From positions 1-64,000 of the forward strand of contig CANMFO010000001.1 of NCBI GenBank assembly GCA_947497245.1: a stretch of DNA of 64,000 nt, read 5' to 3'. Made by a program: the position numbers and the translations under genes. The stretch is from an uncultured Flavobacteriaceae bacterium (GTDB taxonomy: Bacteria > Bacteroidota > Bacteroidia > Flavobacteriales > Flavobacteriaceae). Position 1 is the stretch's first letter. Each line of letters begins with the position of its first letter. This document shows positions 1,531 through 49,811 of the stretch, in pieces. The notes beneath the pieces were generated by a model. That model was given only the letters and a program-made list of their open reading frames with translations, did not search any database and was not told where the DNA came from.

Positions 1531-1563
1531 TATTATAATATAATTAAAACATAATTATCTTTA
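1531..1563 (+). promoter_or_regulatory. Candidate promoter of the first PLP enzyme, phnA-type architecture
   Basis: The 16-mer at 1531-1546 matches the element in front of phnA (28503-28518) at 12 of 16 positions. It is followed by exactly 9 bases and then TATCTTTA (1556-1563), which resembles the Bacteroidota -7 element TAnnTTTG. The phnA promoter and the truncated phnA promoter have the same 9-base spacing. The region is extremely AT-rich, so part of the similarity could be chance. The start codon is 50 bases downstream. Confidence 0.45.
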
Positions 1564-1613
1564 GAAAATGATTTTTAACCCAATTCACCTCTAGGTTTTA
1601 TCGAGATACAATT

Positions 1614-2957
1614 ATGGAACAGGAAATTTTAAGAACCGAAGGAGATGTGAACCTTTCCGAGGAACGGGTAAAATGGCAGGAAAACAATATCTTAAATTCG
1701 GAAACACAAAGATTATTGGAAGAAGATTCCCGTTTGTTCCTTCATCAATCCATGTCGACTCCATGCCTGGATGTCCTACAAAGCTGCAACGGGGCATCCA
1801 TTGAAAATATCGAAGGCAAGGAATACCTCGACTTTCATGGCAACAATGTCCATCAGATTGGATTTGCCAATTCCCTTGTTGTCGACCAGATCAGGAAACA
1901 ACTGGAAGAGCTCTCTTTTTGTACAAGGCGGTTTACCAATAAAAAGGCGATTGCCTTTGCTGGTAAATTAACTTCCTTGCTACCGAATGAACTAAGTAGG
2001 GTGTTGTTTGCCCCTGGGGGGACTTCGGTAATCAGCATTGCTTTAAAACTTGCCCGTGTGGTCACCGGGAAGCACAAGGTCGTTTCGTATTGGGATTCCT
2101 TTCACGGGGCGTCGCTCGATGCGATCAGCGCGGGTGGCGAAGCGGTATTTCGACAGCATATGGGACCTATGATGCCCGGAACCATACGTATTCCGCCCCC
2201 CATGCAGACTGGTGGCTTTTTTGAAGATGAAATGAAATCCGCCGATTACCTGGAATATGTTATTGAAAAAGAAGGTGAAATTGGCGCATTTATAGCGGAA
2301 ACGGTGAGGAATACGGATGTTCAAATTCCTTCCAAAAAATATTGGAAGCGAATCAGGGAAATATGCACGCAGCACAATGTGCTGCTCATTCTGGATGAAA
2401 TACCCATTGCCTTGGGTCGCACTGGAAAAATGTTCGCCTTTGAGAATTTTGATATAGAACCCGACATTCTTTGCTTGGGGAAAGGTTTGGGAGGGGGTAT
2501 TATCCCCTTTGCCGCCATGGTCTGTAGGGAGCAATTCAATATGGCGCAGGACATTTCCCTAGGGCATTTTACACATGAGAAAAGTCCGGTAGGCTGTGCC
2601 GCCGCACATGCGGTAATCGATTTTATCGAAAACGAGGGCATATTGGCAAAAGTAAAGGATGATGCGGAATGGATGGAAAAAGAACTTATGGCCCTTAAGC
2701 AAGCCAATCCGATAATCGGCCACATCAGGGGAATGGGGCTCTTATGGGGTGTGGAATTGCGGAGTCCGACAACAGGGAGGCCCGCTACCCTGGAGGCTGA
2801 AAAAATAATGTACCATTGTCTTCAGCATGGGCTTAGTTTTAAAGTGTCACAGGGAAACGTCTTGCAACTGTCCCCGGCACTGACCATTAAAAGAACGGAA
2901 CTGGAAAAGGCTATCGAAATTTTGAAGAGCGCATTCCGTTCATTGATAAACAACTAA
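1614..2957 (+). CDS. Class III PLP-dependent enzyme, candidate PbfA-type aminophosphonate ammonia-lyase or transaminase
   Basis: A 447-residue cytoplasmic protein of the class III aminotransferase fold. Visible features are the phosphate-binding APGGTS (133-138), the cofactor aspartate in DEIPIALGRTG (D261) and the Schiff-base lysine in LGKGLGG (K290). Some class III proteins linked to phosphonate genes are (R)-1-hydroxy-2-aminoethylphosphonate ammonia-lyases (PbfA) rather than transaminases. The IAETVRNT and DEIPIAL segments depart from the usual IAEPI and DEI..GFG pattern, which is compatible with that. It is paralogous to the enzyme at 14454, sharing FLHQ..STP, HGN.VH and GHFTHEK. The phnA-like promoter upstream and nearby phosphonate genes support the assignment, but the substrate is inferred. 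The next gene, a sigma factor, follows after 25 bases. Confidence 0.65.
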   Translation: MEQEILRTEGDVNLSEERVKWQENNILNSETQRLLEEDSRLFLHQSMSTPCLDVLQSCNGASIENIEGKEYLDFHGNNVHQIGFANSLVVDQIRKQLEELSFCTRRFTNKKAIAFAGKLTSLLPNELSRVLFAPGGTSVISIALKLARVVTGKHKVVSYWDSFHGASLDAISAGGEAVFRQHMGPMMPGTIRIPPPMQTGGFFEDEMKSADYLEYVIEKEGEIGAFIAETVRNTDVQIPSKKYWKRIREICTQHNVLLILDEIPIALGRTGKMFAFENFDIEPDILCLGKGLGGGIIPFAAMVCREQFNMAQDISLGHFTHEKSPVGCAAAHAVIDFIENEGILAKVKDDAEWMEKELMALKQANPIIGHIRGMGLLWGVELRSPTTGRPATLEAEKIMYHCLQHGLSFKVSQGNVLQLSPALTIKRTELEKAIEILKSAFRSLINN

Positions 2958-2982
2958 TTTTAGTGACCTAAGCTATCGTTAC

Positions 2983-3567
2983 TTGAAAAATAGTAGTGCG
3001 AATATCGACCCTGTTTGCTTTGTTTCCCTTTTGGAAAAAGGGGAGACTGTTGCCTTTGAGGCATTGTTCAAGCTGTATTATGATAAACTCACCCATATCG
3101 CCAAAGGCTACTTGGTGTGTCATGAAGATGCCGAAGGCGTAGTCCAGAACGTCTTCCTGAAATTATGGGAGAACAGGTCGCGGTTAAAGAAAATAACCAA
3201 TATGAACAGTTATCTCTATACCATGACCAAGAATGCGTGCTTGGATCAATTGAAGCATGAAAAGGTAAAGATAAATTATTTGCATAACCGTTATCACAAG
3301 AAATTGGCCATTCAGCGTCAATTCCTAAAGGATGAGACCGCCTCCTTACTTCTGAAAAATGAATTGGAACAGGTCATTGTCAAAACTTTGGAACTGCTGC
3401 CCGAAAAATGCAAAAAAGTTTTTGCCAAAAGCAGGGTGGAAGGTCTCAAACACAAAGAAATTGCGGAAGAACTCGGGATTTCTAAAAAAACCGTGGACAA
3501 CCATATTTCATATGCCCTCAAGCATATGAGGTTTCATTTGAGAAACTTTACCACGCTCTTCCTATAA
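2983..3567 (+). CDS. ECF sigma factor, FecI-like (Bacteroidota SusCD-associated)
   Basis: A protein of about 194 residues with a sigma-70 region 2 (FEALFKLYYDKL, then DAEGVVQNVFLKLWE, about residues 25-65) and a region 4 helix-turn-helix (LPEKCKKVF, HKEIAEELGISKKTV, about 135-180). Such factors partner with FecR-type anti-sigma proteins and are activated through an STN-bearing SusC receptor, which matches the genes that follow. TTG at 2983 is the likely start because no ATG is nearby. The same frame stays open upstream into the PLP gene, so the exact start is uncertain. Only 25 bases separate it from the PLP gene, which suggests co-transcription. Confidence 0.85.
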   Translation: MKNSSANIDPVCFVSLLEKGETVAFEALFKLYYDKLTHIAKGYLVCHEDAEGVVQNVFLKLWENRSRLKKITNMNSYLYTMTKNACLDQLKHEKVKINYLHNRYHKKLAIQRQFLKDETASLLLKNELEQVIVKTLELLPEKCKKVFAKSRVEGLKHKEIAEELGISKKTVDNHISYALKHMRFHLRNFTTLFL

Positions 3568-4102: not shown

Positions 4103-5248
4103 ATGCAAGAACCAGAAATTATAAAATATCTTAATGGAACGGCAAGTTCCAGAGAAGAAAAAGAGATAGAAGATTGGATTGTTTCCTCCGATCAAAACGC
4201 GAAAAAATTCAACCTTTTAAAAGCGCGGCATATTGCTTCCACGTTCCCGGAGACCTCCAATGGTATTCAGATGGACAAAGCCCATTCTACATTTTCCGAT
4301 GCCTTGAAGACGGCTTCCGACATGAAGTGTCGAAGATTGAGCATCTTAAGGTTTGCCGCTATTTTGGCCATGGCTTTGGGAATGGGGTATTTCTACACAG
4401 GCGATTCCTTCGTCAAGGAGCCCGAGCCCATTGTTCCAGATGATGCCATTACGCTACAATTGGAAAATGGGGATATCCAGATTATTTCCGAAGGAAGTAA
4501 GGCCAAGGTCATGGATTCGGAAGGAAACCTCGTGGGCGCGCAGAACGGAACCCAGTTGGTCTACAAAAATAACGAGTCCGCTGTTGGGGAATCCGTTCTC
4601 AATAAACTTACCGTTCCCTATGGAAAGCGGTTTGATGTGGTTCTATCGGACGGGACGCATATATTTCTCAACGCCGGAACATCCCTTACCTATCCCATAA
4701 AATTTATCAAAGGGAAAGAAAGGCAGGTTTTTCTAAAAGGTGAGGCGTTCTTTGATGTTGCAAAAGATACGGACCATCCTTTTTTGGTGCAGGTAGAAGA
4801 TCTCAACGTAAGGGTTTTGGGCACACGGTTCAATATATCCTCCTATCCCGAGGACATCTTGGTAAATACCACCTTGGTGGAAGGGTCGGTAAGCATTTAT
4901 GCAAAGGAAGATCCCTACGATGCCTCAACATCCTCCTTGTTGGAACCGGGATATAAAGCGGAGTGGAATAAAAAGGACAAGAATATTTCCATCGAGGAGA
5001 CCGATGTGGCGCTTCACACGGCATGGGTAAGGGGCAAAGTCGTTTTCAGACACCTCCCATTCAAGAGCATTGTCAAAAAATTGGAGAGACATTACGATGT
5101 GGCCATAACCAACCACAACAAGGTATTGGACGACGAATTCTTCACCGCCAGTTTTGATGTGGAGACCATCGAACAGGTATTTGAAGTGTTCAAGATGAAC
5201 TATGGCATAGACTACAAAATTATAAATAATGAAGTAATTATTAACTGA
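4103..5248 (+). CDS. FecR-family anti-sigma factor/transducer
   Basis: A 381-residue single-pass inner-membrane protein. A cytoplasmic N-terminal sigma-binding part (1-85) is followed by one membrane segment (about 86-104, RFAAILAMALGMGYF), the periplasmic FecR domain (LTVPYGKRFDVVLSDGT, FLKGEAFFDVAKD, about 175-290) and a C-terminal STN-like DUF4974 domain (about 310-381). It should hold the sigma factor encoded at 2983 inactive until the SusC receptor next door signals that substrate is bound. An independent transcript is likely because of the terminator upstream. Confidence 0.9.
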   Translation: MQEPEIIKYLNGTASSREEKEIEDWIVSSDQNAKKFNLLKARHIASTFPETSNGIQMDKAHSTFSDALKTASDMKCRRLSILRFAAILAMALGMGYFYTGDSFVKEPEPIVPDDAITLQLENGDIQIISEGSKAKVMDSEGNLVGAQNGTQLVYKNNESAVGESVLNKLTVPYGKRFDVVLSDGTHIFLNAGTSLTYPIKFIKGKERQVFLKGEAFFDVAKDTDHPFLVQVEDLNVRVLGTRFNISSYPEDILVNTTLVEGSVSIYAKEDPYDASTSSLLEPGYKAEWNKKDKNISIEETDVALHTAWVRGKVVFRHLPFKSIVKKLERHYDVAITNHNKVLDDEFFTASFDVETIEQVFEVFKMNYGIDYKIINNEVIIN

Positions 5249-5389: not shown

Positions 5390-5433
5390 AAGGTGTGATT
5401 AAATTAATTAACCACGTAATACACAACAAAAAT

Positions 5434-8400
5434 ATGAAAAAACTAACTAGGCTGGGGGAACTCATCCCTTTTCGGCCGAAATTCGACTTGAAAATGAGGC
5501 TTACTACTTTTTTATTGATAGTATCCCTATTTCAACTCCATGCCAACGACACCTATGGTCAAAAGACCAAGATCACGTTGAATCTGGAAAACGTACGTCT
5601 CGAAAACGTTTTGGACAAAATTGAAACACTCACCGAGTTCAAGTTCATGTACAATGACAAGGAGGTGGATTACCAAAAAATCGTCTCGGTCAATGCAAAT
5701 AGGGAGCGTGTTTCCGCTGTATTGGAGAAACTGTTCACAAATACCGATATCGTATTTGAGGTATTGGAAAAACAAATCGTGTTAAAACCAGGGACACCCC
5801 TTCCATTGGAAGAAATACCAGAGGAGGCGACCGTTTCGATCGCGGACCAACAGTTCGAGATAAACGGTATCGTTTTGGATAAAGATGGCCAACCCTTGCC
5901 CGGGGCCAACGTGCTTGAAAAGGGTACGTCCAATGGAATACAGTCCGATTTTGATGGTCGTTTCTCCCTGACACTTGCCGATGGAAATGCAACATTGGTA
6001 ATCTCCTACATAGGCTTTACAACAAGGGAGGTTGCCGTGAACGGACAGACCGATATAAGCATAACTTTGGAGGAGAGCGCCACAGGGCTAAGCGAGGTCG
6101 TAGTTACCGCGCTGGGGATCAAAAAAGAGAAAAAACGACTGGGCTACGCGGTGCAGGAGGTGAAGAACGAAAATTTGGTGACCGCTAGGGAAACCAATGT
6201 TACCAACTCATTGGCAGGACGGGCGGCCGGGGTCCAGATCACCGGCGGCGGTTCCGGGGTGGGATCCACCTCTTTGATCACCATTCGGGGCGAAGGCTCC
6301 CTGATCCCTGGAAATAATTCACCACTTTTTGTGGTCGATGGTATTCCCATCAGTAACCGGACGGTCAGTAACCGTTCCGAGGGCAATTTGGAAACGGATT
6401 ACGGAAACGGGGCACAGGATATCAACCCGGATGACGTGGAGTCCATTTCTATCTTGAAGGGACCCAATGCCACGGCACTATATGGGTCAAGGGGATTGAA
6501 CGGAGTCGTTTTGGTCACAACGAAATCGGGGCAGGGCTCAAAGGGCCTGGGCATCAGCTTCACGCAAAACCTTACGTTTGAAAATGCGCTGCGCATACCG
6601 AGGTACCAAAACCAGTACGGCCAGGGTGCGGGCGGTGAATTCTCGCTTTTGGACGGCTTTGGGGGCGGTACAAACGACAATATCGATGAAAGCTGGGGAC
6701 CGCCCTTGGATGGTCGTTTGATCAATCAGCACGATAGTCCCACCTCAAGTGGGTTCAGGGCGGCCGATTTTGCCTTGCGCCCCCGCAATGCCGACGGGAC
6801 CTTTGCGGATGAGATCATAGCCACTCCATGGTTGCCCCATCCCGATAATATTGAAAACTTCTTCGAAACGGGTGTTACCAGTACGACCAACCTTTCATTG
6901 ACAGGGGGGAACGAGTCGGGCAATTTCAGACTGTCGCTGACAAATTTGGACAGTGACGGCATCTTACCCAATATGGACTACAAGCGAAAGACCTATGCGC
7001 TCAGCGGTGCCTATAACTTAAAGCCCTGGCTCAAAGTATCTTCTTCCATCAATTATATCAACAGTGGCAGTAACAACCGGCCCAACAATTCCTATGGTAC
7101 CGAAAATATCATGTACCTGTGGGTTTGGTTCGGTCGCCAAATCGATATGAATTCGTTGCGCAATTATTGGCAGCCGGGACTTGAGGGCCGTCAGCAGTTC
7201 AACTACAACTACAACTGGCACGACAACCCCTTCTTTACATTGAACGAGAACACCAACGGTTTCAATAAGGATAGAATTTTTGGCAATGCGCGGGTGGACA
7301 TCGATGTGACCAAGAACCTGGCGCTGATGCTCAGAACGGGTATCGATTATTTTGGCGAGCTGAGAACCGGTCGAAGGGCGTACAGTACGCAACGTTTTGC
7401 GCGCGGCCAGTACCGGGAGGATGATATTTTCTTCAAGGAGCGGAATACAGATTTTCTCTTGCAGTACAACAAAGATGTCAATGACGACTTCAATGTAGGC
7501 CTTTCTTTTGGCGGAAACATCCGCGAAGAGGAAAATCGTTTCAAGCGTATAAGCGCCAATTCACTTTCCATACCGGGCATCTATAATTTCGCCAATGCCG
7601 CGGAGCCTTTGTCGAAGACACAGTTCAACGACAAACGAAAGATCAATTCGTTGTACGCCTTCGCAAACCTCTCCTATAAAAACTACCTTTTCTTGGATGT
7701 TACGGGAAGAAACGATTGGTCGAGCACATTACCGGTGGACAACAATTCGTATTTCTACCCATCAGTGGGGGTAAGTGCGATCATATCGGACATGCTCACC
7801 ATGCCGGAACCGATCACTTTCTTTAAACTGCGCGGCGGTTGGGCGCGGGTGGGCAATGATACCGATCCGTATGCACTGCGGAACACCTTCTCGTTCAACG
7901 AACCCTTCGGCAATTTTCAAAGGGTGAGCGCTTCGCAGGTTTTGCGCAACGAAGAGCTTTTGCCCGAGGAGGCGAACTCCCTCGAAATCGGTGCCGATCT
8001 CCGTTTGTTCAACAATCGATTGGGTCTGGACGTTTCTTGGTATGATTCCACTACCAAAAACCAAATTTTAACCTTGCCCGTGACCAATACTTCAGGGTTC
8101 AGCTCAAGAATTATCAATGCTGGGGAAATACAGAACACAGGTGTGGAGGTCGTGTTGAACGCAACACCGGTCCAAACCGAGGATTTTAGCTGGACCACCA
8201 CCGCGAACTTCACCCGTGCAAGGGGAACGGTAAAATCTTTGACCGAAGGTCTGGATACCTATGAAATGTCGAACAACTACCTTAGCGTACAGGCCAAGGT
8301 GGGCGGTAGAATGGGCGACGTATACGGAACGGGATTGGTAACCGTTGACGACCCCAACAGCCAATTCTTTGGTCAGGTAGTGCACAACGAAGACGGGTTT

Positions 8401-8976
8401 TCCCTGCGCGATCCCAATCTGAAGCTATTGGGCAACTACAATCCAGACTTTACCCTGGGACTGCAAAACACCTTTTCGTATAAAGGGTTCAATCTGGGCG
8501 TACTTTTCGATTGGCGGCAAGGCGGGGTGATAATGTCCAGGACCGTGTTGATCGGTGGAACTTCGGGATTGATGGATTTTACCGCGATAGGCCGTGAAGA
8601 AGGAATCATCTCGGAAGGTGTGATTCAAAATGCAGATGGTACGTACCGTCCCAACGACATACGTCTCAGCGGCCGGGACTATTACTGGTGGCGCTATAAC
8701 CGTGGTAATGAGGAAATCGGAATGTTCGATGCTTCCTTTGTAAAACTGCGTGAAGTGAAATTGGGGTACGACATACCCAGAAAACTGCTTCAAAACACGT
8801 TCATCCAATCGATGAGCTTATCGCTGGTCGGCAGAAACTTGGCGTTGTGGACCGAGAATCCCCATTTCGACCCGGAGACCATTTCCTTTAATGGAGGTAC
8901 CATCGTACCCGGCGTTGAAGATATGGCCCTGCCCAGCTCGAGAAGCTACGGCTTCAACTTAAACATAACCTTTTAA
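5434..8976 (+). CDS. SusC/RagA TonB-dependent outer-membrane receptor with STN signalling domain
   Basis: A protein of about 1180 residues. Order: signal peptide (about 1-40), STN domain for signalling to FecR (about 45-115), carboxypeptidase-regulatory-like barrel domain (EINGIVLDKDGQPLPGA, about 140-215), plug with the SusC motif SEVVVTALGI and a TonB-dependent plug core (about 220-360), and a long beta-barrel ending in an aromatic C-terminal strand (GFNLNITF). ATG at 5434 is preferred over the upstream GTG at 5395 because it places a positively charged n-region before the signal peptide. With the SusD gene 12 bases downstream it forms the importer of the first module. The ligand is unknown; phosphonate-decorated oligosaccharide is an inference from context. 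Confidence 0.95.
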   Translation: MKKLTRLGELIPFRPKFDLKMRLTTFLLIVSLFQLHANDTYGQKTKITLNLENVRLENVLDKIETLTEFKFMYNDKEVDYQKIVSVNANRERVSAVLEKLFTNTDIVFEVLEKQIVLKPGTPLPLEEIPEEATVSIADQQFEINGIVLDKDGQPLPGANVLEKGTSNGIQSDFDGRFSLTLADGNATLVISYIGFTTREVAVNGQTDISITLEESATGLSEVVVTALGIKKEKKRLGYAVQEVKNENLVTARETNVTNSLAGRAAGVQITGGGSGVGSTSLITIRGEGSLIPGNNSPLFVVDGIPISNRTVSNRSEGNLETDYGNGAQDINPDDVESISILKGPNATALYGSRGLNGVVLVTTKSGQGSKGLGISFTQNLTFENALRIPRYQNQYGQGAGGEFSLLDGFGGGTNDNIDESWGPPLDGRLINQHDSPTSSGFRAADFALRPRNADGTFADEIIATPWLPHPDNIENFFETGVTSTTNLSLTGGNESGNFRLSLTNLDSDGILPNMDYKRKTYALSGAYNLKPWLKVSSSINYINSGSNNRPNNSYGTENIMYLWVWFGRQIDMNSLRNYWQPGLEGRQQFNYNYNWHDNPFFTLNENTNGFNKDRIFGNARVDIDVTKNLALMLRTGIDYFGELRTGRRAYSTQRFARGQYREDDIFFKERNTDFLLQYNKDVNDDFNVGLSFGGNIREEENRFKRISANSLSIPGIYNFANAAEPLSKTQFNDKRKINSLYAFANLSYKNYLFLDVTGRNDWSSTLPVDNNSYFYPSVGVSAIISDMLTMPEPITFFKLRGGWARVGNDTDPYALRNTFSFNEPFGNFQRVSASQVLRNEELLPEEANSLEIGADLRLFNNRLGLDVSWYDSTTKNQILTLPVTNTSGFSSRIINAGEIQNTGVEVVLNATPVQTEDFSWTTTANFTRARGTVKSLTEGLDTYEMSNNYLSVQAKVGGRMGDVYGTGLVTVDDPNSQFFGQVVHNEDGFSLRDPNLKLLGNYNPDFTLGLQNTFSYKGFNLGVLFDWRQGGVIMSRTVLIGGTSGLMDFTAIGREEGIISEGVIQNADGTYRPNDIRLSGRDYYWWRYNRGNEEIGMFDASFVKLREVKLGYDIPRKLLQNTFIQSMSLSLVGRNLALWTENPHFDPETISFNGGTIVPGVEDMALPSSRSYGFNLNITF

Positions 8977-8988: not shown

Positions 8989-10431
8989 ATGAAAAAAGAT
9001 AGCATATTAACACTCATCGCTATGTTCTTTGCTTTTGCAAGTTGTACGAACGACTTTGAAGAGACCAATTCCAATCCGAACCAACCCGAAACGGTAAGTG
9101 CCGATCTGTTGTTGGCAACGGTCATTTCCACGATAGCCAACGAAGCCGCGACCACAGGTTGGAACAATGGCAACATTGTTTCACAGTTGACCGCTAAAAT
9201 CAACTTTACCGGTTTCGATCGCTACGAATGGGGCTCGCAATCTGGATTATGGAATACCTATTACGGTATTTTACCCGAAATTGAGCTGATCTTGGAGGAC
9301 GCGACTTCTGAAGAGTCCAGAAATACCTCATACGAAGGTATGGCCCTGGTCATGCGTTCGTATGTATACGCCAATCTTACAGACAACTGGAGCGATGTTC
9401 CGTTTTCGGAGGCCATTGGCGCCAAAAATGATAATTTTACCCCGGCCTATGATACCCAGGAAGCTATTTACGCGGGAATCTTGGCCGATTTGAGGACCGC
9501 TGAGACCTTATTGCAACAAAATCAGGTCGTTTTAGGGGGCGATATTCTCTACGATGGCGATATTGGAAAATGGATCCAATTCGCCAATTCGTTGCGATTG
9601 CGCTATTTGATGCGGACCTCGAACAGAAACGACGTTGGTGCCGAAATACAGTCCATTTTGGATTCGGGAAATTACATCGCGGCCAATGGCGACAATGCCC
9701 TCATGGTGTATCCCGCCACTACCCAAATCGATTCATGGCCCGTCAGCAATAGCCGGATCGGTAGTTTTGACGAGCATCGCATGAGCCAGACCAGTGAGGG
9801 GGTTCTCAAGCAGTTCAATGACGACCGTTTGCAGAAATGGTTCCAACCTACCGACAATCCGGATGATGACCCGACACTTTTCGCCGGTATGGCCAATGGC
9901 CTGAGCGAAGACAACGCGTCGAATTTCAACGGTGGGGCCAACAACGTTTCCCGTATCAACCAACCCTTTTTCTACGATTCGCCCAATTCGGTAAAGGCCG
10001 CCATCATCCAAGCCGCCGAAGTGCATTTCATCCTGGCCGAAGCGGCACAGCGCGGTATGATCACGGCCGATGCGGAAAACCTGTACAACGAAGGCGTACG
10101 TTTATCCTTTGAATATTGGGAGGTTGAGCAGGATGTTCCAACGTATTTGGCACAAGCAGGGGTTGCCTTCGACAACCAATTGGAAACCATCTTGACGCAA
10201 AAATGGCTGGCTTCGTTTTTAGTGGGATTGGAAGGCTGGTACGATTTTAGAAGAACGGGCTTCCCATCGGTAATAGTGCCCGGTCCCGATAATGTAAACA
10301 ACGACATGGTGCCCGTTCGCTTTTTGTATCCCGATTCGGAACAGACCTTGAACGGTGATAACTATAAAGCCGCAGTTTCAAGGATAGGAGCGGATGATAT
10401 CAACGCCAAAGGATGGTGGGATGCGGATTAA
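8989..10431 (+). CDS. SusD/RagB-family surface lipoprotein
   Basis: A 480-residue lipoprotein with signal peptide and lipobox (FASC, cysteine near residue 19) and a SusD-like fold of the SusD-like_2 type (EAIYAGILADLRTAE, VHFILAEAAQRG, FLVGLEGWYDFRRTG). It would cap the SusC channel and present ligand. It starts 12 bases after susC. Its last codons overlap the start of the alkaline-phosphatase-superfamily lipoprotein by 11 bases, which suggests translational coupling and ties that hydrolase to the uptake system. Confidence 0.93.
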   Translation: MKKDSILTLIAMFFAFASCTNDFEETNSNPNQPETVSADLLLATVISTIANEAATTGWNNGNIVSQLTAKINFTGFDRYEWGSQSGLWNTYYGILPEIELILEDATSEESRNTSYEGMALVMRSYVYANLTDNWSDVPFSEAIGAKNDNFTPAYDTQEAIYAGILADLRTAETLLQQNQVVLGGDILYDGDIGKWIQFANSLRLRYLMRTSNRNDVGAEIQSILDSGNYIAANGDNALMVYPATTQIDSWPVSNSRIGSFDEHRMSQTSEGVLKQFNDDRLQKWFQPTDNPDDDPTLFAGMANGLSEDNASNFNGGANNVSRINQPFFYDSPNSVKAAIIQAAEVHFILAEAAQRGMITADAENLYNEGVRLSFEYWEVEQDVPTYLAQAGVAFDNQLETILTQKWLASFLVGLEGWYDFRRTGFPSVIVPGPDNVNNDMVPVRFLYPDSEQTLNGDNYKAAVSRIGADDINAKGWWDAD

Positions 10432-42221: not shown

Positions 42222-42369
42222 TATAAGTAATCTACTTTTTTTAGGGTTTGGGCCATGGTGGTCGGAGTGCGGTCCGCTGCAGCGTTCCCTTGGATATGAA
42301 TATTTTGGATCTTCCATCTTTTTTCTTAAAAATTGAACAAGCACAGGGCAAAATCGAGAGGATTACATT

Positions 42370-43356
42370 TCATGGTTTGTCCATTTGGGTGCTGAAATTC
42401 AGCGTTCTTTCCGTTATGGTCGGATGCATGCCATCGGCATCGGGAACGCCAATTTCACGTGGCGTGGGTGCAATAAATTGTGTTGTGGCACCTTCTATGT
42501 GGAGTTTGCCCTCATCCGCATCAAGGGAGAGAACGGTATAGAGCGGGTTCCGATAGGGACAGGTATATCGAACGGAGGGATAAGCAGTTTCTATATGGGG
42601 TGCAAAGCGTTGTGTCTCAAATTTCCCACCGACCCATTTGTAGGACATGCTGTTGATCTGGATGTAGGGAATGCCATTGATTTCCTTTACATAATCGGTA
42701 TGGTGGTGTCCGCTTAAACAGGCAACGACCTTTGATCGTCCACCCTTTCGCCCGGCCCCTTCCAATATCGCCCTTATTTCTTCCTTATTGGCCACTCCGG
42801 AATCGGCCTCCAAACTTTGGTGGACAAAAACTATTGTCGGTTTGTTGGCCTTGCGCAGATCATCGGTCAGCCATTCGCGCTGTGCTGTTCCAATATAGCG
42901 GTCATAGCCACTCCAAGGTGCCGGATTTTGATCATTTCCATCCAATACGATGAAATGGAAGCTTCCCTGGTCAAAGGAATAATAGCGTTTTTTCATTTGC
43001 CACCAGTCCATGGTCTGCTCCCTGGTGAACCCCAGGTCACGCATATCGTGATTTCCCAGCACATGGTAGCTGGGGCCTTCAAATTCGTTCCATATATCGA
43101 GAAAGGGTTGATTTTGTTTGCGCGGAAGGGCGAAATCCCCCATTTGTATAATAAAATTGGGATTTCTTTCCTTCATGTCATCCATAAAAAATCGCAACCT
43201 TGCGTATCCATCATGGATAATATCCTGATGTACATCGGCAACAATGCCTATTTGCAATTTCCCGCCCATTTTGAGGCCGTATCCCGATATGGGGAAGGGC
43301 AGGGACAGTATCAATCCCGCTTTCACGGATTTTCGTATAAAACTTCTTCTTTCCAT
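42370..43356 (-). CDS. Calcineurin-type metallophosphoesterase with Tat-like signal
   Basis: About 328 residues starting at a Met followed by ERRSFIRKS, a twin-arginine-like signal. The metallophosphoesterase motifs are all present: GIVADVHQD, MGDFALP, GNHDMRD, VFVHQSL and SGHHHTDY. It probably hydrolyses phosphomonoesters or phosphodiesters in the periplasm. The adjacent EEP genes (34 and 148 bases away) suggest they act on the same material. Confidence 0.87.
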   Translation of the reverse strand: MERRSFIRKSVKAGLILSLPFPISGYGLKMGGKLQIGIVADVHQDIIHDGYARLRFFMDDMKERNPNFIIQMGDFALPRKQNQPFLDIWNEFEGPSYHVLGNHDMRDLGFTREQTMDWWQMKKRYYSFDQGSFHFIVLDGNDQNPAPWSGYDRYIGTAQREWLTDDLRKANKPTIVFVHQSLEADSGVANKEEIRAILEGAGRKGGRSKVVACLSGHHHTDYVKEINGIPYIQINSMSYKWVGGKFETQRFAPHIETAYPSVRYTCPYRNPLYTVLSLDADEGKLHIEGATTQFIAPTPREIGVPDADGMHPTITERTLNFSTQMDKP

Positions 43357-43438
43357 CATATTCTTAATAGGTTCTTTTTTGTTCCCGTTCGGCAAGACGT
43401 CCATTTTTGCAACAAGGCTTACCTGTGTCGAATGCCTG

Positions 43439-44260
43439 CTATTCGGGCAGCAGTTCGAGCACGCTCAATACCGGTCGGTGGTCGGAGGCCAGGGATTCGT
43501 CGATTACTCGTGTTTCAGATACCTTCCATCTGTTTGCCGGCCTGAAAAGGACATAATCGATTTTTGCCCGTGGGTTTTTGGAAGGTGCAGTGGGGACGTT
43601 TTCCAAAAACGATTTTTTCCAGTTCCCATAAAGCAGTTGCATTGTGGGGCTATTGGGAAGGGCATTCAGATCGCCCGCCAATATTGTTGGGGTACCATCG
43701 TCATCCTGCGCAAAGAGGGCATTGAGCATTTTGGCCTGTTCCAACCTGTCCCTATTTTCCTTTCCATAGTCCAAATGTGTTGAAACAAAACGCAGAGTAT
43801 CTCCGGACTGTAGTGGAATCAATGCTTCCAGGGCACCTCTTGGTTCCCTATCCTCCGAACCTGGCAGTTTGTGGTTTTGAACTTTCCAAATCGGATTCCG
43901 AGACAATATTCCAGTGCCAAAATAACCTCCATCAAACGACATGGACTTTCCGAACAATGGGATCAATCCCGTCCTGAGGCCCAATTCCACGCAAATGTTC
44001 ATTTTTTTCGCCCGTTCCGTATGGACATCCACTTCCTGTAAGGCCACAAAATCCGGTTTGACGGAATGGATCACACTGGCTATGTGGTCGAGATCGAAAT
44101 CTCCCTTCATGGTTTCACCGTGGTATATATTAAAGGTCAATACCCGAACAGTTCGAAGCGTATCTACTTTGGATTGTGCCCTAACAAGGTTATTGGGGGC
44201 GACCATCAGCAGGAACAACAGAAAGGGGGCAAGCTTACGGGATTTTGTTCTAAGCATCAT
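43439..44260 (-). CDS. Secreted EEP-superfamily phosphodiesterase-like protein
   Basis: About 273 residues from the ATG at 44260 (or 44257) with a signal peptide ending NNLVRAQ. The EEP landmarks are VLTFNIYHGE, ALQEVDVHT, VSTHLDYG, AGDLNALPNS and ASDHRP. The start codon overlaps the stop of a 46-codon open frame (ATGA), which argues for translational coupling. It heads the phosphoesterase run EEP-MPE-EEP-MBL. Confidence 0.88.
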   Translation of the reverse strand: MMLRTKSRKLAPFLLFLLMVAPNNLVRAQSKVDTLRTVRVLTFNIYHGETMKGDFDLDHIASVIHSVKPDFVALQEVDVHTERAKKMNICVELGLRTGLIPLFGKSMSFDGGYFGTGILSRNPIWKVQNHKLPGSEDREPRGALEALIPLQSGDTLRFVSTHLDYGKENRDRLEQAKMLNALFAQDDDGTPTILAGDLNALPNSPTMQLLYGNWKKSFLENVPTAPSKNPRAKIDYVLFRPANRWKVSETRVIDESLASDHRPVLSVLELLPE

Positions 44261-44397
44261 GGTATTGCAATGGGGACGATTACCTGGGTCCCGTCCCATT
44301 TAAAAATAAGCTGCGCCTTCCGACCTTCTGCCTTTGGATCCATTGTGAACTGTTCCGGCTTGCTGCCAAGATCTTTTGGCCGGGCTGTGGTTTCCAT
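44257..44397 (-). CDS. Small ORF translationally coupled to the EEP gene
   Basis: A 46-codon frame from the ATG at 44397 to the TGA at 44257-44259. The TGA shares bases with the ATG of the EEP gene (ATGA overlap). The product starts METTARPKD and ends with the beta-strand-like AQLIFKWDGTQVIVPIAIP. No signal peptide or membrane segment is visible and I recognise no family. The overlap and absence of waste between frames favour a real translated ORF, either a small protein or a leader controlling the hydrolase operon. Confidence 0.45.
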   Translation of the reverse strand: METTARPKDLGSKPEQFTMDPKAEGRKAQLIFKWDGTQVIVPIAIP

Positions 44398-44662: not shown

Positions 44663-45220
44663 CTAATTCAACAGGTAGATTTTCAACAAAACGGCCGGTT
44701 CGTCAAATTCGTTTGATAGGCCATGTGGAACCGTACCGTCAAAAAACAGTAGATCTCCCTTTTCCAAATCAATGTGCTCTTTTCGAATAAGGTACGCAAG
44801 CCTTCCACTTAGGACAAAGACCAGTTCGTTGGCATTGGTGGAGATCGGTTTTCGATACGATTTGCCCGCCACATTTATCAAATACACCCGAATGCTGTTA
44901 TCCGATGTATTGCTCGAGAGCAAGTGGGTGTATTCCAAATTTTTCGAATCTTCCCTGACTTCTTTGGTTCCCTCCCCATCCTTTACAAGAATATAGTCGC
45001 CCTTGATATTGGAGGTTAGGTCCAATTCGGCCAGATCAATGCTCAAAGTTTGCATGATCTTTAACAAAACGGGCAGGGAGGGAGTGGTTCTTAAGTTTTC
45101 GATCTTTGAGATCAGCCCGGCACTCACCCCCGTTCTTTTGGCGACCTGCTGCAAGGTTAAATCCCGTTTTTGTCTAGCCAACTTTAGCTGCTTGCCAATG
45201 TTTACCAAAATATCATCCAT
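44663..45220 (-). CDS. XRE-family regulator with C-terminal cupin domain (copy 2)
   Basis: A 185-residue paralogue of the regulator at 34030. The helix-turn-helix is nearly identical (QLKLARQKRDLTLQQVAKR, then GVSAGLISKIENLRTTP), and so is the cupin end (YLIRKEHIDLEKGDLLFF), with most differences near DLTSNIKGD. Because the recognition helix seems unchanged, both copies should bind the same operator. It lies 193 bases after the NPCBM gene and upstream of the phosphoesterase run, so it may coordinate the second half of the phosphonate locus. Confidence 0.9.
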   Translation of the reverse strand: MDDILVNIGKQLKLARQKRDLTLQQVAKRTGVSAGLISKIENLRTTPSLPVLLKIMQTLSIDLAELDLTSNIKGDYILVKDGEGTKEVREDSKNLEYTHLLSSNTSDNSIRVYLINVAGKSYRKPISTNANELVFVLSGRLAYLIRKEHIDLEKGDLLFFDGTVPHGLSNEFDEPAVLLKIYLLN

Positions 45221-45247
45221 GCTTGAAGTTTTAAATTCTAGATCGAC

Positions 45248-45413: not shown

Positions 45414-48194
45414 CTATTCAACGACCAACCAAGTATAACCATTGGCAGGAATGGTCACCTCCATGTTTATATGGTAGTCCCTTGTTAATTTATATGTCGT
45501 ACTTTTTGCCCCCTTTTCCCTTACGCTTGCCTCGAAGGTCAGCCCGGTATAGTACAAAGGCAGCCGTACATTTCGTTTTATCTTGGAATCGGTAGGATTG
45601 AAAAGCATGACCAGTCCTTTTTCCTTTAGGTAAGGGTTCACATGCATAAACCCGTCCCAGTCCTTGCCCGAAGGGCGCCGTAAATGAATGATGTCACTAT
45701 TGAGGATGTTCCGATATTTTTTGTACCAATCGATGACCTTTTTGACCACGGCCTTGGTCTTGGGCGTATCGTACAATCGAGGTCCGCGGTAACAAGCTTG
45801 TACCCCCGACCCATAGTTTTGCATCATGTGGTTTTCATAATCCACCAAATGATCGTTCAGCGGCTCCAAAGTAGCCGCGGCCCCGCCACCGTGATATTCC
45901 GTCAAAGGCACAAATGTCCAGCACATACTGGGTATGCTATTCCAAAGTCCGTCATAAATATTGGCCCGCCCCAATATCAATTGTCGGTCCCTGGGCAGGG
46001 ACCAATTGACCTCTCGATAGCCTATGCCCGTCTTGTTGGTACCGGAGTTCAGATAAAAATCGGGCACGTTCATGTAAATACCTTCGGAACGCATCCATTT
46101 GTACAGGCCCTGTATCTGGGCGTACTGCTTCCACTGGGAATCTTCCAGCCCATTGTGGTGCGCGTGCGTCGTAGAGGCGCAGACGTTGCCCGGATAGGAA
46201 CCATCGTTTTCGAAAACCTGCATTCCCGTTTTTGCGAAGAATTTTTTGATCTTCCTGAAATAGCCATGGCCCCATTCGCTGCTCAGGCAAGGCGAAGAAC
46301 CAAAAATCATTCCCCCACGTTTGCCGGTCTTTGGATTGATGACATCGACCTCATCACTGATCCAACGGCTCGACAGCAGGGAATATCCACCCAATTCCAC
46401 CCCCTTGCTATTGGCGTAATCCACCAAATCCTTAAATTTTTGATAATAGGCTTCTTCCTCATTTTCCATGTCCAATCCGCTGCCGAAGCTCAGAATGATC
46501 ATTTCATATCCCACTTCAGCGCATTGATCGACCGCTGTTTTTATTTTTTTTGGATCGATGGAAGTCAAATGCAAGAAAATTGGGTTCTCGGTGGTCCATG
46601 GTGAAATGGTGCGGTACATTTTTCTCAAAAACAATCCTTTTCGCTCCTTATCGTGACTGTCAAAAGGAGTTTCCCAGACCCTAAAGGTGGCGAAGGATCC
46701 CCCTGAAGGAATTCCGGTATCGGGCCCTATGGGCGGTCTTACCTCCAAAATACAGGGCAATTGCAGGGGATAATTGGTCTGTGAGGTATAACGGGGATCC
46801 GTTTCCCAAAAGGTGGTCTTGTCCGAAGTCTTTTGCTGCATGGCACCAAAAGCATAATCTGTCTCAACATGTATGTTCGGCTTCTCCCAATGTTCGGGAA
46901 TGTCCACCAAGTTTTCTCCCTCGACCATCGCCAATGTTTCCAATTTAAAACGGTTCAGGTGAATGGGCAGTCCACCGGCATTGGTGACTTCGATCCACTT
47001 GCCCAAGGTGGGGATATGGTCATAGAGCTCATAGTGCACCTTGACATATACATCGTCTTTTTTTAGCGTAAAAATAATTTCCTTGCCCGTGGGCATGTCT
47101 TTGTTCGATGTCCATCGAACGCGTTTCCAGTCCAATCTGTCTTTGATATCCTTGACCTCAAAATCCTCGACTAAAAAGGCATTTGGGGCTGCAGCCAGCT
47201 GATCCACCCATTTCATGAGGGTATAGGCATATTCGGGTTGTTTGCCCAAGCCTCCGATGCCATATCTTTTTCCATCAATGGTCAAGGTCCCTTCATTGGA
47301 AACGGCGCGCAAAAGGCTTTCCCCTTCCATTTGATTGATATAATCGATGGTAGCCAAATTGGGCAGTACTCGGAATACCCTTGCTATCAATCCGTTGGAC
47401 AGAACGATATCCGCATTGCTTTCCGTTCCATAGACATGGGCCTTGGCCTTGGTATTGTCGATCAGCCAATCGTAGTCCGTTTGCTGTAGCGGCAAAGTGG
47501 TTTTGGGAAGCCTACTGATTTTTGACCGTAATTTTTCACTGATATCGGAGGGAAGACTGGGAGCTTCGCCAATATATTCCTGGCCGACCGTAATGGGTGG
47601 AATTTCAAAGTACCGTATGGTAGGGTCTATCCAAACAGCTTGATCGCCGCTGGCCCCATCCCCGGCGTCTTCAACGACCAATTCCAAAACCCCCTTGATT
47701 ACCTTGATTTTTACTTCCTTGGCTTTATCGCCGCCATGTACCATACCGCTATTGTACACTTCTTCCCCATTATTGCGTATTTTAAAAACAACACTGCCCT
47801 TGCCCACCTTGCCGTTTTCGTCCCCGATGCCCAAAAATTGCTTTTGTGTTTTAGTGATGTTGTAAAATCGTTTGGTACCATCGGTGAGTGGTATGGATCG
47901 TACATTTTTTGTTCCGTAATCGATCTTGGAATCATTGACGCCTATCTTGGCGGTAAAAATATCGTCATGGAAGAGCTTGATCCGAATATTGGAAGTGGCA
48001 TGCACTCCAATACCTTCCTTAAAAATTTTCCCGGCAATGGAAAGTTGTTCTCCTGATACGGATTTGTTCCTGACCGGGGCGCCATAGGTCTGCTCTGCCA
48101 ATGAAATGTCCAGATCGGCCACCTTAATGCTGGATTGGGCATTCCCGGCCACCGCACTAAAAAATGCTAAGGACAGAAGTATTATTTTCTTCAT
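45414..48194 (-). CDS. Secreted NPCBM-domain protein with alpha-galactosidase-like barrel
   Basis: About 926 residues from the ATG at 48194, which gives a clean signal peptide (MKKIILLSLAFFSAVAGNAQ). An NPCBM carbohydrate-binding domain follows (about 25-195; EGIGVHATSNIRIKL, then IGVND, and GAVW-like QAVWIDPTIRYF). A middle beta-rich region leads to a GH36/GH27-like TIM barrel (about 535-800). D664 in the VFENDGSYPG motif sits where a retaining nucleophile could lie. It is a candidate glycosidase for the phosphonate-bearing glycan. Family assignment below the clan level is uncertain. It starts 88 bases after the FAD gene. Confidence 0.75.
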   Translation of the reverse strand: MKKIILLSLAFFSAVAGNAQSSIKVADLDISLAEQTYGAPVRNKSVSGEQLSIAGKIFKEGIGVHATSNIRIKLFHDDIFTAKIGVNDSKIDYGTKNVRSIPLTDGTKRFYNITKTQKQFLGIGDENGKVGKGSVVFKIRNNGEEVYNSGMVHGGDKAKEVKIKVIKGVLELVVEDAGDGASGDQAVWIDPTIRYFEIPPITVGQEYIGEAPSLPSDISEKLRSKISRLPKTTLPLQQTDYDWLIDNTKAKAHVYGTESNADIVLSNGLIARVFRVLPNLATIDYINQMEGESLLRAVSNEGTLTIDGKRYGIGGLGKQPEYAYTLMKWVDQLAAAPNAFLVEDFEVKDIKDRLDWKRVRWTSNKDMPTGKEIIFTLKKDDVYVKVHYELYDHIPTLGKWIEVTNAGGLPIHLNRFKLETLAMVEGENLVDIPEHWEKPNIHVETDYAFGAMQQKTSDKTTFWETDPRYTSQTNYPLQLPCILEVRPPIGPDTGIPSGGSFATFRVWETPFDSHDKERKGLFLRKMYRTISPWTTENPIFLHLTSIDPKKIKTAVDQCAEVGYEMIILSFGSGLDMENEEEAYYQKFKDLVDYANSKGVELGGYSLLSSRWISDEVDVINPKTGKRGGMIFGSSPCLSSEWGHGYFRKIKKFFAKTGMQVFENDGSYPGNVCASTTHAHHNGLEDSQWKQYAQIQGLYKWMRSEGIYMNVPDFYLNSGTNKTGIGYREVNWSLPRDRQLILGRANIYDGLWNSIPSMCWTFVPLTEYHGGGAAATLEPLNDHLVDYENHMMQNYGSGVQACYRGPRLYDTPKTKAVVKKVIDWYKKYRNILNSDIIHLRRPSGKDWDGFMHVNPYLKEKGLVMLFNPTDSKIKRNVRLPLYYTGLTFEASVREKGAKSTTYKLTRDYHINMEVTIPANGYTWLVVE

Positions 48195-48282
48195 AACTGA
48201 ATACTTTGTGGGCTTGCGCACTCGATTTTTGAGGTCGTCAATAGCACTGAACAGCGCGGATTTTTGTCTAAGGTACCGCATT

Positions 48283-49518
48283 TTATCCACTTACCTTTTT
48301 CGATCTGGCCGCTGCACATTTGTTCAACCATTCCTTGGAAAACGGGTCTATTTCACCGAATCGGGTTATTTTAAATTTGGAATAGTCGAACGGGCTGGTT
48401 CTTCCGGCCGCCATTTCCGCTATGCCCAGGCCCACACCGCCCGCCACCGAAATACCCGCTCCGCAACATCCCGAGGCTATCAAAAAGCCCTCAAGGCCAG
48501 GGATGTCGCCCAAAACCAGCTGCGAGTCCGGGGTATACCCCGAAAAGCCCGCTATATGGTATTTAATTCCAATATCGTAGAACGCCGGAAAAAAGCGAGC
48601 CAATCTTTCGCCGTTTTCAACAAGATCATCCATGCCCCCATCGGCACTAAAAACAAAATCCGTAAGGTCTTTCGGAACGTCTTTGGGCGACGCTACCAGG
48701 GAACCGCCCTCGCGAATTCCGAACAATAGGCTTCCCCCTTCGGGACGGGCGTAGGCCTGCGCATCGGGCAATAGGACCATAGGTGAATCCATTGGAAATA
48801 TATCTGCCTTTTCGGTAATCCAATATTGGCTCCTTACCGGGGCCATCGGGATACCCACTCCGATCTCTCCTGCCAGTATGGGAGCCCAAACACCCGCGGC
48901 ATCCACAACCGTATTTGTATGGATATCCCCTTCTGAGGTATGTATCCCTTTTATGGCCCTTCCTTCCCAAATGAGGCCCAAAGCTTCCACGCCCTGCCGT
49001 ATTTGAGCTCCTCGTTTTCTGGCGCAACGGGCAAAAAAGGAGCCCAGCATATAGGGGTCACAATACCCTTCATCGGGTACAAATGCAATTTTTAGGGCTT
49101 CGTCCACTTTTAGCCAGGGAGCTTTTTTTTGCGCTTCTTCCTTGGATATGTAATAGGCCTCTTGGTCGTATTCCTTGGCAATGGCCATTAAGGCCTCCAA
49201 GTCTTTTACTTTGGCCTCGCTGGCTGCAAAGTGCATCATACCGGAATACTTGAAATCCAGATTTTCTCCCAGATCGGCCTCCATTTCCTTGGCGACCCTA
49301 AAGGTCTCCACGGTCAGGGGGATATAGGAACGCTTGGACCGCAGCATGGTCATTAAGGCAGCGGCCCGACTGGTGGCGGCATTGTTCAGTGCATTTCGTT
49401 CTAGGAGTACTACTTTCTTATCAGGATTGTTCCGGATATAGTAATATGCGATGGCGCAGCCAAATATTCCACCCCCAACAATGGCCAAATCCGCATTTTC
49501 AACTGAAGTAGCGTCCAT
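48283..49518 (-). CDS. FAD-dependent amino-compound oxidoreductase (DAO family), candidate PbfD-like enzyme
   Basis: About 411 residues from the ATG at 49518. The dinucleotide-binding motif LAIVGGGIFGCAIAYYY is near the N-terminus, followed by LLERNALNNAATSRAA and, at the C-terminus, SGYTPDSQLVLGDIPG and ASGCCGAGISVAGG, typical of sarcosine/dimethylglycine-oxidase-like flavoproteins. Related FAD enzymes next to phosphonate genes (PbfD) oxidise N-methyl-aminoethylphosphonate or aminoethylphosphonate to phosphonoacetaldehyde. The gene is driven by a phnA-type promoter through the truncated phnA, with which it overlaps by 20 bases. The frame is also open upstream to a GTG at 49572, so the exact start is uncertain. 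Confidence 0.72.
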   Translation of the reverse strand: MDATSVENADLAIVGGGIFGCAIAYYYIRNNPDKKVVLLERNALNNAATSRAAALMTMLRSKRSYIPLTVETFRVAKEMEADLGENLDFKYSGMMHFAASEAKVKDLEALMAIAKEYDQEAYYISKEEAQKKAPWLKVDEALKIAFVPDEGYCDPYMLGSFFARCARKRGAQIRQGVEALGLIWEGRAIKGIHTSEGDIHTNTVVDAAGVWAPILAGEIGVGIPMAPVRSQYWITEKADIFPMDSPMVLLPDAQAYARPEGGSLLFGIREGGSLVASPKDVPKDLTDFVFSADGGMDDLVENGERLARFFPAFYDIGIKYHIAGFSGYTPDSQLVLGDIPGLEGFLIASGCCGAGISVAGGVGLGIAEMAAGRTSPFDYSKFKITRFGEIDPFSKEWLNKCAAARSKKVSG

Positions 49519-49750
49519 CTCCGTTTTTTTTGCGTTCGAAACACCATGACTTTGCACTGGGGCGGTCACCACGGCCCCTTTTGCCCCTGTTTTGACTTTC
49601 TCCAGGTAGGATAATGGGCACTTTTAAGTATTTGGGGTCGTCCATCATCACCTCCGCAGCCTTTTCGTAATAGCGATAGGGGATTCCGTCCATACCTATT
49701 CCCGAGATCGGCCGGCCAACCTCGGGGTAATCTCTAGAGTTGATTTTCAT
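49499..49750 (-). pseudogene. phnA: Truncated phnA copy (internal deletion plus frameshift)
   Basis: It starts MKINSRDYP like phnA. It matches PhnA residues 1-34, then jumps to residues 90-110 (MMNDPKYLKVP.IL..SQN), then loses the phnA frame by one extra base and stops at 49499. The missing piece is exactly 56 codons, equal to the distance between two GGAGGTGATG repeats in intact phnA; one such copy remains here at 49646-49655. The nucleophile segment is gone, so no hydrolase activity is possible. The remaining 83-codon frame overlaps the FAD gene and may serve as a translated leader. Confidence 0.85.
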
Positions 49751-49778
49751 ACGTAACAATGAAATCTTTATTTTTGCA

Positions 49779-49811
49779 TTAAAGTATAAAAAATATACAT
49801 ATAGTATAATT
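49779..49811 (-). promoter_or_regulatory. phnA-type promoter in front of truncated phnA and the FAD gene
   Basis: On the minus strand AATTATACTATATGTA (49811 down to 49796) is identical at all 16 positions to the phnA element. It is followed by 9 bases and TACTTTAA (49786-49779), 28 bases before the truncated phnA ATG. The sequences between and beyond these elements differ from those at phnA, so the conserved blocks have been kept selectively. Confidence 0.7.

Follow-up and report, generated by a model that had tools for sequence, protein, structure and literature searches.

A probable SusCD-based locus for the uptake and breakdown of aminoethyl-phosphonate compounds in a Flavobacteriaceae bacterium

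Aminophosphonates are a large natural pool of phosphorus that occurs to a great extent bound to lipids and glycans, and the locus described here raises the question of whether such bound compounds are taken up through SusCD outer-membrane systems that belong to an aminophosphonate pathway. The window analysed is a stretch of 64,000 nucleotides (C1:1-64000) from the genome of an uncultured Flavobacteriaceae bacterium (5.25 Mb in 34 contigs), in which two SusCD modules lie beside the phnA, phnY and phnW genes and two pbfA genes. A sequence-only reading had proposed that these modules import a phosphonate-decorated glycan or lipid-derived oligomer, and every gene that it named is present where it had been placed (checked between 1614 and 49572). 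The locus is probably a SusCD-based uptake and breakdown system for aminoethyl-phosphonate compounds, a reading that draws on observed gene identities, conserved co-location and a complementary distribution of C-P cleaving enzymes, from which transport, cargo, enzyme order and cell location are inferred.

The core of the pathway is found on the forward strand at 28567-32351, where phnA (28567..29778), phnY (29799..31226) and phnW (31245..32351) are adjacent, with gaps of 20 and 18 bases, and together encode the whole PhnW-PhnY-PhnA route. PhnA, the phosphonoacetate hydrolase that cleaves the C-P bond, and PhnW, the 2-aminoethylphosphonate (AEP) aminotransferase, are each above a curated cut-off (TIGR02335 468.9 bits, cut-off 407.55, and TIGR03301 406.8 bits, cut-off 360.8, respectively), and PhnY, the phosphonoacetaldehyde dehydrogenase, is about 3 bits short of its own (TIGR03250 632.3 bits, cut-off 635.65). 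PhnA also matches the solved phosphonoacetate hydrolase 1ei6 of the PDB (1.2e-120), and PhnW reaches 349 bits on TIGR02326, under the cut-off of 400.8. The two class III pyridoxal-phosphate enzymes of the sequence-only reading can be named more specifically, as PbfA-family lyases: PbfA1 (1614..2957, forward strand, NF049939 688.9 bits, cut-off 525) and PbfA2 (14454..15803, reverse strand, 660.9 bits) are the only two proteins of the genome above the NF049939 cut-off, with the broader model NF004755 giving PbfA1 a little more (696.5 bits). One pbfA stands beside each SusCD module, a feature absent from the earlier reading, as is the GlpT-like major facilitator superfamily (MFS) gene directly 3' of phnW (32396..33673, forward strand, TIGR00881 227.4 bits, below cut-off), a candidate inner-membrane aminophosphonate permease of the AepP-like kind. 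An XRE-cupin regulator follows (33808..34590, forward strand, HTH_3 and Cupin_2, true start codon probably more internal), and this whole run is divergent from fecI2.

Module 1, on the forward strand, starts with PbfA1, which ends 25 bases before the extracytoplasmic function sigma factor FecI1 (2983..3567, Pfam sigma-70 r2/r4), and continues with the anti-sigma factor FecR1 (4103..5248, Pfam FecR and FecR_C), SusC1 with its STN domain (5395..8976, Pfam; TIGR04056 689.5 bits) and, after 12 bases, the SusD1 lipoprotein (8989..10431, SusD-like_2 2e-92, lipobox). Directly after SusD1 come NPP, a type I phosphodiesterase family lipoprotein (10394..11380, PF01663 2.1e-35) whose open frame overlaps susD1; after 44 bases, an exported protein resembling the metallo-beta-lactamase (MBL) fold (11425..12708), without Pfam match; and, after 29 bases, PAP, an exported purple-acid-phosphatase/metallophosphoesterase (12738..14330, Pfam). 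Module 2, on the reverse strand, is composed of FecI2 (27652..28254, Pfam sigma-70), FecR2 (26180..27385, Pfam FecR), SusC2, also with an STN domain (22499..26089, Pfam), SusD2 (20951..22480, SusD-like_2 1.7e-91, thus of the same family as SusD1) and a lipoprotein with Big_5 and LamG (ConA-like) domains (19338..20918, Pfam), likely a surface binding protein, whose cysteine is followed by SDDD. After a 431-base gap there follow EEP1, a lipoprotein of the endonuclease/exonuclease/phosphatase (EEP) fold (18109..18906, PF03372 3e-10, lipobox), 26 bases further a glycoside hydrolase of family 92 (GH92, the exo-alpha-mannosidase family; 15812..18082, Pfam 3.2e-166) and, 8 bases after it, PbfA2. The two susC-susD tandems (5395-10431 and 20951-26089) are of the type by which polysaccharide utilization loci are recognised.

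PbfA is above the cut-off in 28 of 397 genomes of the family and in 15 of 395 genomes of the phylum; PhnA is above its cut-off in 8 of those 395. The family set consisted of 30 PbfA loci from the 28 genomes (27 fetched with 20 kb around each, G182, and the two of the window). As controls, these genomes supplied 35 windows, of which 20 were placed at a fixed offset of 100 kb from PbfA and 15 were hand-picked on the same contigs. With a SusC match defined by 400 or more aligned residues and 100 or more bits, 25 of the 30 loci (23 of 28 without the window) have one no further than 10 kb from PbfA, versus 4 of the 35 controls, with a Fisher p of 3e-9 that treats related genomes as independent and so overstates the evidence. 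The misses are L137 (a SusD end piece only), L140, L146, L147 and L150, the last with SusD within 10 kb and SusC just beyond the limit; L151 was scored through another SusC, that of its own operon being just beyond 10 kb. Under a second rule set, the PbfA loci hold NPP (25 loci), PAP (23), MBL (17), PDEb (16), XRE-cupin (20), a PhnX-like hydrolase (20) and SusD (25), and the controls none of these apart from a single SusD. The order SusC-SusD-NPP-MBL-PbfA-PAP recurs in 13 loci of 11 genera (G182, L125, L127, L129-L134, L138, L139, L141 and L142, with the NPP frame split in L133), and in G182 the six proteins are 61, 49, 66, 66, 61 and 68% identical to those of module 1.

A genome of another genus, G760, combines both modules with phnAYW in a stretch of about 41 kb. 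There, MFS, XRE-cupin, PhnW, PhnY and PhnA are followed by the divergent FecI2, FecR2, SusC2, SusD2 and LamG (88, 84, 93, 93.5 and 75% identical to those of the window for the last five), and facing this module are PDEb, PAP (82%), MBL (75%), NPP (73%), SusD (39%), SusC1 (56%), FecR1 (73%), FecI1 (88%) and PbfA1 (88%), together with GH92 (42%). PbfA2 was not found in the G760 locus; in G525 its relative (84%) is beside FecI, FecR, SusC2 (67%), SusD2 (62%) and LamG (59%). The G760 locus also contains a PF02826 dehydrogenase (L179:8363-9361), which is a candidate PbfF because this racemase of 1-hydroxy-AEP (HAEP) belongs to the same Pfam family.

GH92 enzymes, NPCBM proteins and LamG binding proteins are typical of glycan loci, and as all three are encoded in the window, the modules could be two ordinary mannan or N-glycan loci that came by accident to lie beside a phosphonate operon. 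Chance neighbours are not expected to recur, however, and this explanation is very improbable: a chance neighbourhood is disfavoured by the 25 of 30 versus 4 of 35 loci with SusC, by the similar arrangement in G760 and by GH92, which 2 of the 30 PbfA loci (one in the window) have at a distance of up to 10 kb. It is therefore well supported that the link between SusCD and phosphonate genes within the family is not due to chance, and the assignment of the two SusCD modules to the aminophosphonate pathway is supported.

The family contains two alternative C-P cleaving enzymes. The haloacid-dehalogenase-type gene of the relatives encodes a PhnX-like hydrolase (TIGR03351 229.1 and 232.6 bits in two family members, 203.5 bits in a protein from one genome outside the family, cut-off 218.9), beside which, in G182, lies a flavin adenine dinucleotide (FAD) enzyme gene above its curated cut-off (TIGR03364 405.8 bits, cut-off 285.1). 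Among the 28 PbfA genomes, 20 have the PhnX-like enzyme, 7 PhnA, none both and one (G519) neither; for sets of 20 and 7 among 28 to share no genome, the probability would be about 7 in a million under independence, which does not hold for these genomes. The complementary distribution is good evidence that PbfA serves phosphonate breakdown in the family. Of the 7 PhnA genomes, all but G601 have a SusC no more than 8 kb from PhnA. Four of six named Arenibacter PhnA loci have an adjoining SusCD. In the window's own genus, PhnA above cut-off was found in 1 of 10 genomes searched, that of the window. Beside PbfA and PhnX-like genes there is also a polytopic membrane protein, DUF5690 (PF18943; L104:11046-12338 and 7 other lineages), with 10-12 hydrophobic segments in four members by a simple count, which may serve to carry aminophosphonates across the inner membrane in loci that lack the GlpT-like MFS protein. 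A relationship between the two was not supported (hhalign probability of 1.2%, from shallow alignments).

Several observations weigh against an uptake and breakdown locus dedicated to aminoethyl-phosphonate compounds. Three family genomes (G628, G713 and G554) have PbfA loci without SusC or any other gene of the locus within 10 kb, their PhnA being 24-46 kb off, beside a FecI-FecR-SusC-SusD set. In the phylum sample outside the family, the 13 PbfA loci (12 genomes) are all without a full-length SusC1- or SusC2-like match within 10 kb, and no SusC was found in the stretch covered of a Fulvivirga and two Chitinophaga-labelled PhnA loci. Relatives of SusC1 occur without an adjoining PbfA in G449 (85%), G713:C11 (65%) and G456 (64%), a group of 52% identity adjoins ethanolamine genes, and in seven regions of a group of about 45% there were no phosphorus genes among those queried. 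In the window itself, PbfA2 is possibly not on the SusCD2 transcript, because LamG is separated from EEP1-GH92-PbfA2 by a terminator-like hairpin; hits of this kind occur at chance frequency, and the promoter and terminator counts of a scan of 18001-29000 were at chance level. Inverted repeats 5' of the operons gave no consistent pattern as a common regulator site.

The co-occurrence of these genes in other genomes, proposed as a check by the sequence-only reading, was thus found inside the family; outside it, SusC was not found beside PbfA and the picture is weaker. Some of the outside PbfA loci are near other TonB-receptor-like genes, and in G126 a SusCD adjoins a separate PhnA locus; repeatedly, these loci hold NPP, PhnW, PhnY/PhnA, XRE-cupin and others. 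NPP relatives (E <= 1e-45) are present in 15 of the 395 phylum genomes, 11 of which also have PbfA above the cut-off. In three distant Bacteroidota, NPP relatives whose single chain has two tandem catalytic domains are found beside PbfA and PhnA (L089:15280-17790, L092:6886-9351 and L098:15338-17794). The genome of the window has, in addition, another NPP gene (53% identity), accompanied by FecI, FecR, SusC and then a 618-residue gene in the SusD position (G000:C5:174576-183657, L152); its SusC resembles those near PbfA in G519 and G578, and L152 is a possible third organic-phosphorus SusCD locus.

In a SusC tree, SusC1 groups with the SusCs of PbfA operons; its rows were taken mostly from loci near PbfA or PhnA, a choice that precludes showing exclusivity, and the relatives elsewhere come from a separate search, in which 18 regions were examined of more than 150 listed matches. 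In G449, SusC-SusD-PDEb adjoins XRE-cupin, PhnX-like, FAD enzyme and DUF5690 relatives; in G456, the SusC1 relative is near NPP, PDEb, DUF5690 and a relative of the DAO-family FAD enzyme; and in G713:C11, near PDEb only. Taken together, proteins of the SusC1 type are associated with aminoethyl-phospho(no) compounds at large. The ethanolamine set is found beside SusC1-type SusCD at L179:8363-15874 (G760), L217 and L218, and consists of ethanolamine-permease-like, glutamine-synthetase-like and aldehyde dehydrogenase genes, to which G760 adds glutamine-amidotransferase and iron alcohol dehydrogenase genes; it looks like a gamma-glutamyl ethanolamine route.

These genes bear on another explanation, that SusCD mainly imports C-O-P phosphodiesters of the phosphoethanolamine or glycerol type for their phosphate, as in the PUS loci of Flavobacterium, and that the phosphonate enzymes are an add-on for C-P analogues entering by the same door. 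The ethanolamine-permease-like protein (348 bits in G760 and 356 in G479, the latter in the 52% group, by NCBIfam, cut-off 381.75) accompanies a glutamine-synthetase-like one beside SusCD in both genomes, the same two are recognised by Pfam in G676, also of the 52% group, and G713 probably has them too, by size and order only. Moreover, a 600-residue alkaline-phosphatase protein is encoded in 10 of the 28 non-window PbfA loci, with a GDPD_2 domain in the one member scanned, and PhoA1 of the Flavobacterium PUSII has the same extra domain (pf13653; PMC8115612). Nevertheless, PhnX-like or PhnA is present in 27 of the 28 PbfA genomes and ethanolamine genes were not found among the window genes scanned, which leaves this explanation unlikely.

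The preferred reading, an aminoethyl-phosphonate locus, still allows different cargoes. A glycan polymer as cargo was not borne out: GH92 is found in 2 of 30 loci, GH1 in 7 of the 28 loci outside the window (two of the seven scanned; a glycosyltransferase-like gene and a metallophosphoesterase gene accompany it) and GH5 in one, so that the most frequent recognised glycosidase family is in 7 of 30 loci versus 25 for NPP (74 single-locus open reading frames were outside the scan). A sugar backbone is possible in some loci, and no glycosidase is a fixed part. In the sole GH5 locus, L134:4030-6515 (G649), an enzyme with GH5 and GH5_C domains lies beside an EEP-fold enzyme (a 41% relative of EEP2), PDEb, PAP and PbfA. 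GH5_C is known from endoglycoceramidases, so this locus may target phosphono-glycolipids. A strict phosphonate polymer, that is, an aminophosphonate-decorated glycan or glycolipid whose sugars are trimmed by the glycosidases, would be a special case of the preferred reading, overlapping with it, and is somewhat doubtful; examples would be invertebrate or protist glycans with AEP on their mannose or GlcNAc, glycolipids of molluscs and the Acanthamoeba phosphonoglycan. It fits the 8 bases between GH92 and PbfA2, the presence of GH92 also beside PbfA1 in G760, the seven GH1 loci and the GH5-GH5_C enzyme, and both AEP and N-methyl-AEP have been described on glycolipids and, in glycans of invertebrates and protists, on mannose or GlcNAc (PMC6994554, PMC5745450), R-HAEP having been first isolated from an Acanthamoeba polysaccharide (PMC8154272). 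Apart from the low frequency of glycosidases, it has against it that R-HAEP-bearing glycans are known from very few sources. As phosphoester hydrolases are much more recurrent than glycosidases and SusC1 relatives adjoin ethanolamine genes, the cargo is likely aminoethyl-phosphonate or -phosphate esters of lipids or glycans.

In an alignment of eight NPP members, D53, S89, N92, D200, H204, D247, H248 and H255 are invariant and can be read as metal and nucleophile positions; the longer relatives (two scanned) carry C-terminal CHB_HEX_C and PA14 domains, which the window NPP lacks. The only PDB relatives of the MBL protein are pneumococcal phosphorylcholine esterases (Pce/CbpE; 3.2e-7 with a profile of 7 sequences, a weak similarity). 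That enzyme takes a zwitterionic head group off a polymer, and the match would fit, weakly, an esterase for aminoethyl-phosphonate decorations. As for where cleavage takes place, the sequence-only reading had surface enzymes releasing the aminophosphonates. By a crude pattern of our own, which misses SusD2, a lipobox is present in 22 of 39 distinct NPP sequences, 1 of 16 MBL, none of 24 PAP and 1 of 17 PDEb, and an SDDD-like stretch, present in the LamG protein, was not found in 14 NPP sequences inspected; cleavage may therefore be periplasmic, after import, instead of at the surface.

According to the mechanism proposed, each SusC/SusD pair, induced through its own FecI/FecR pair, would carry aminophosphonate-bearing molecules (esters of the lipid head-group type, decorated oligosaccharides) across the outer membrane, and NPP, MBL, PAP and the EEP-type enzymes, in the outer membrane or the periplasm, would cut the P-O ester and free the aminophosphonates, which the GlpT-like permease would move into the cytoplasm. 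PhnW, acting on AEP, and PbfA1 and PbfA2, acting on R-1-hydroxy-AEP, would yield phosphonoacetaldehyde, as would probably the DAO-family enzyme from N-methyl-AEP or AEP, and PhnY and PhnA would convert it to acetate and phosphate.

The DAO-family enzyme belongs to the right-hand stretch of the locus (40204-49572), encoded entirely on the reverse strand. It includes an exported protein with a weak MBL-fold match (40204..41274, PF12706 9.2e-5, below cut-off), EEP2 (41310..42344, PF03372 1e-15), a calcineurin-like metallophosphoesterase (42370..43404, PF00149 5.1e-14) with a 64% relative in the Fulvivirga phn locus L016, EEP3 (43439..44299, PF03372 9.9e-27), for which no match was found in the PDB, and XRE-cupin regulator 2 (44663..45220). 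The NPCBM protein (45414..48290, PF08305 8.2e-27), whose gene overlaps that of the FAD enzyme by 8 bases, had been called glycosidase-like and may or may not be a glycosidase; NPCBM is the sole domain recognised, and a single-sequence AlphaFold model (mean pLDDT, the predicted local distance difference test, of 32.1) was not used for fold search. The DAO-family FAD enzyme (48283..49572, PF01266 3.4e-55), a candidate N-methyl-AEP/AEP oxidoreductase and possible member of one of the published PbfB, PbfC and PbfD subgroups, is above the cut-off of none of the curated NCBIfam models listed (best, N-methyl-L-tryptophan oxidase with 94 bits; TIGR03364 43 and TIGR03329 29). Copies of it, 77-81% identical, are found at 5 of 6 Arenibacter phn loci, those of the GlpT-like MFS protein (74-79%) at all 6 and those of XRE-cupin 2 (74-77%) at 3. 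Further right, the segments 51064-53184 and 53401-54291 code for one protein that is trypsin-like, one of FGE-sulfatase type and one of the EEP fold, the fourth of that fold, and the locus may reach about 54300, because the last is 40% identical to one that ends the phn run in L126. A nitronate-monooxygenase-like gene at 38349-39535 (forward strand) is split into overlapping frames (38349-39041 and 39014-39535) and thus contains a frameshift or an assembly error, and an HpaB-type 4-hydroxyphenylacetate 3-hydroxylase gene (57671-59416, forward strand) is apparently unrelated. Rfam and tRNA scans of the window gave no matches.

The biochemistry of PbfA, PhnWYA and the FAD enzymes is already known (PMC8154272, PMC12366243, PMC10590968), and SusCD loci for organic phosphorus are known as well, the present locus being a version with a full aminophosphonate pathway. 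The PusCD of Flavobacterium are SusCD proteins for organic phosphorus, in loci induced by low phosphate, and one clause of that work places them with phosphonate-degrading enzymes, the other use of 'phosphonate' in the main text available being a chromatography step (PMC8115612). In Maribacter forsetii, the SusC/D pair P177_RS04595/04600 has as neighbours an alkaline phosphatase, an FAD-dependent oxidoreductase and a phosphonatase-like hydrolase, and was assigned to laminarin uptake, with no phosphonate conclusion in the sections available (PMC11345257). To state that no SusCD locus of this kind had been described, as the sequence-only reading did, was thus too strong. By description, the resemblance to PUS lies in SusCD-like pairs beside phosphomono- and diesterases instead of carbohydrate-active enzymes (PMC8115612), as with NPP, MBL and PAP here; the differences are the full PhnWYA with two PbfA, the two FecI/FecR modules, the conserved NPP-MBL-PbfA-PAP core and the PhnX-like/PhnA alternatives. 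The phnWAY-pbfA and phnWX-pbfA clusters (PMC8154272, PMC12366243) share the cytoplasmic enzymes, by which several inputs lead to phosphonoacetaldehyde; the parts of those papers available mention phosphonate transporters and not SusCD, whereas here outer-membrane import and exported esterases are within the unit. AepP, likewise by description, resembles the GlpT-like protein: it is an MFS protein of the organophosphate antiporter type, reported next to phnWAY or phnWX in several organisms, one Bacteroidetes species included; AepXVW, AepP and AepSTU import free 2AEP, and the available main text contains neither 'TonB' nor 'outer membrane' (PMC8316502). With FecI/FecR-controlled SusCD loci for polysaccharides, the locus shares the architecture of SusC (STN), SusD, FecI, FecR, surface lipoprotein and GH92, and differs in that its recurrent exported enzymes have phosphoesterase folds and its pathway products are phosphate and acetate. 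No description of the SusCD-PbfA core as such was found in the open-licence subset of PubMed Central, a coverage that leaves out subscription journals and preprints.

A conserved route across the outer membrane, equipped with dedicated esterases, would account for the access of these bacteria to bound phosphonates, and it yields candidate phosphonate-ester hydrolases, namely NPP and the Pce-like MBL protein. More tentatively, the family may have a widespread class of SusCD devoted to zwitterionic aminoethyl-phosphonate and -phosphate decorations of foreign lipids and glycans, in which SusCD would import, NPP and Pce-like esterases would remove the head group, and PbfA, PhnW and FAD enzymes would mineralise it with PhnX-like or PhnA. 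The Maribacter forsetii pair has neighbours of the types found in the relatives described here, by description only (PMC11345257), and may, as a guess, be an organic-phosphorus importer. The annotation of SusC/D by neighbourhood becomes testable in this way, and some supposed glycan importers may feed on phosphorus; if such a class exists, published assignments of these pairs to plain polysaccharides, such as laminarin in Maribacter, would be wrong.

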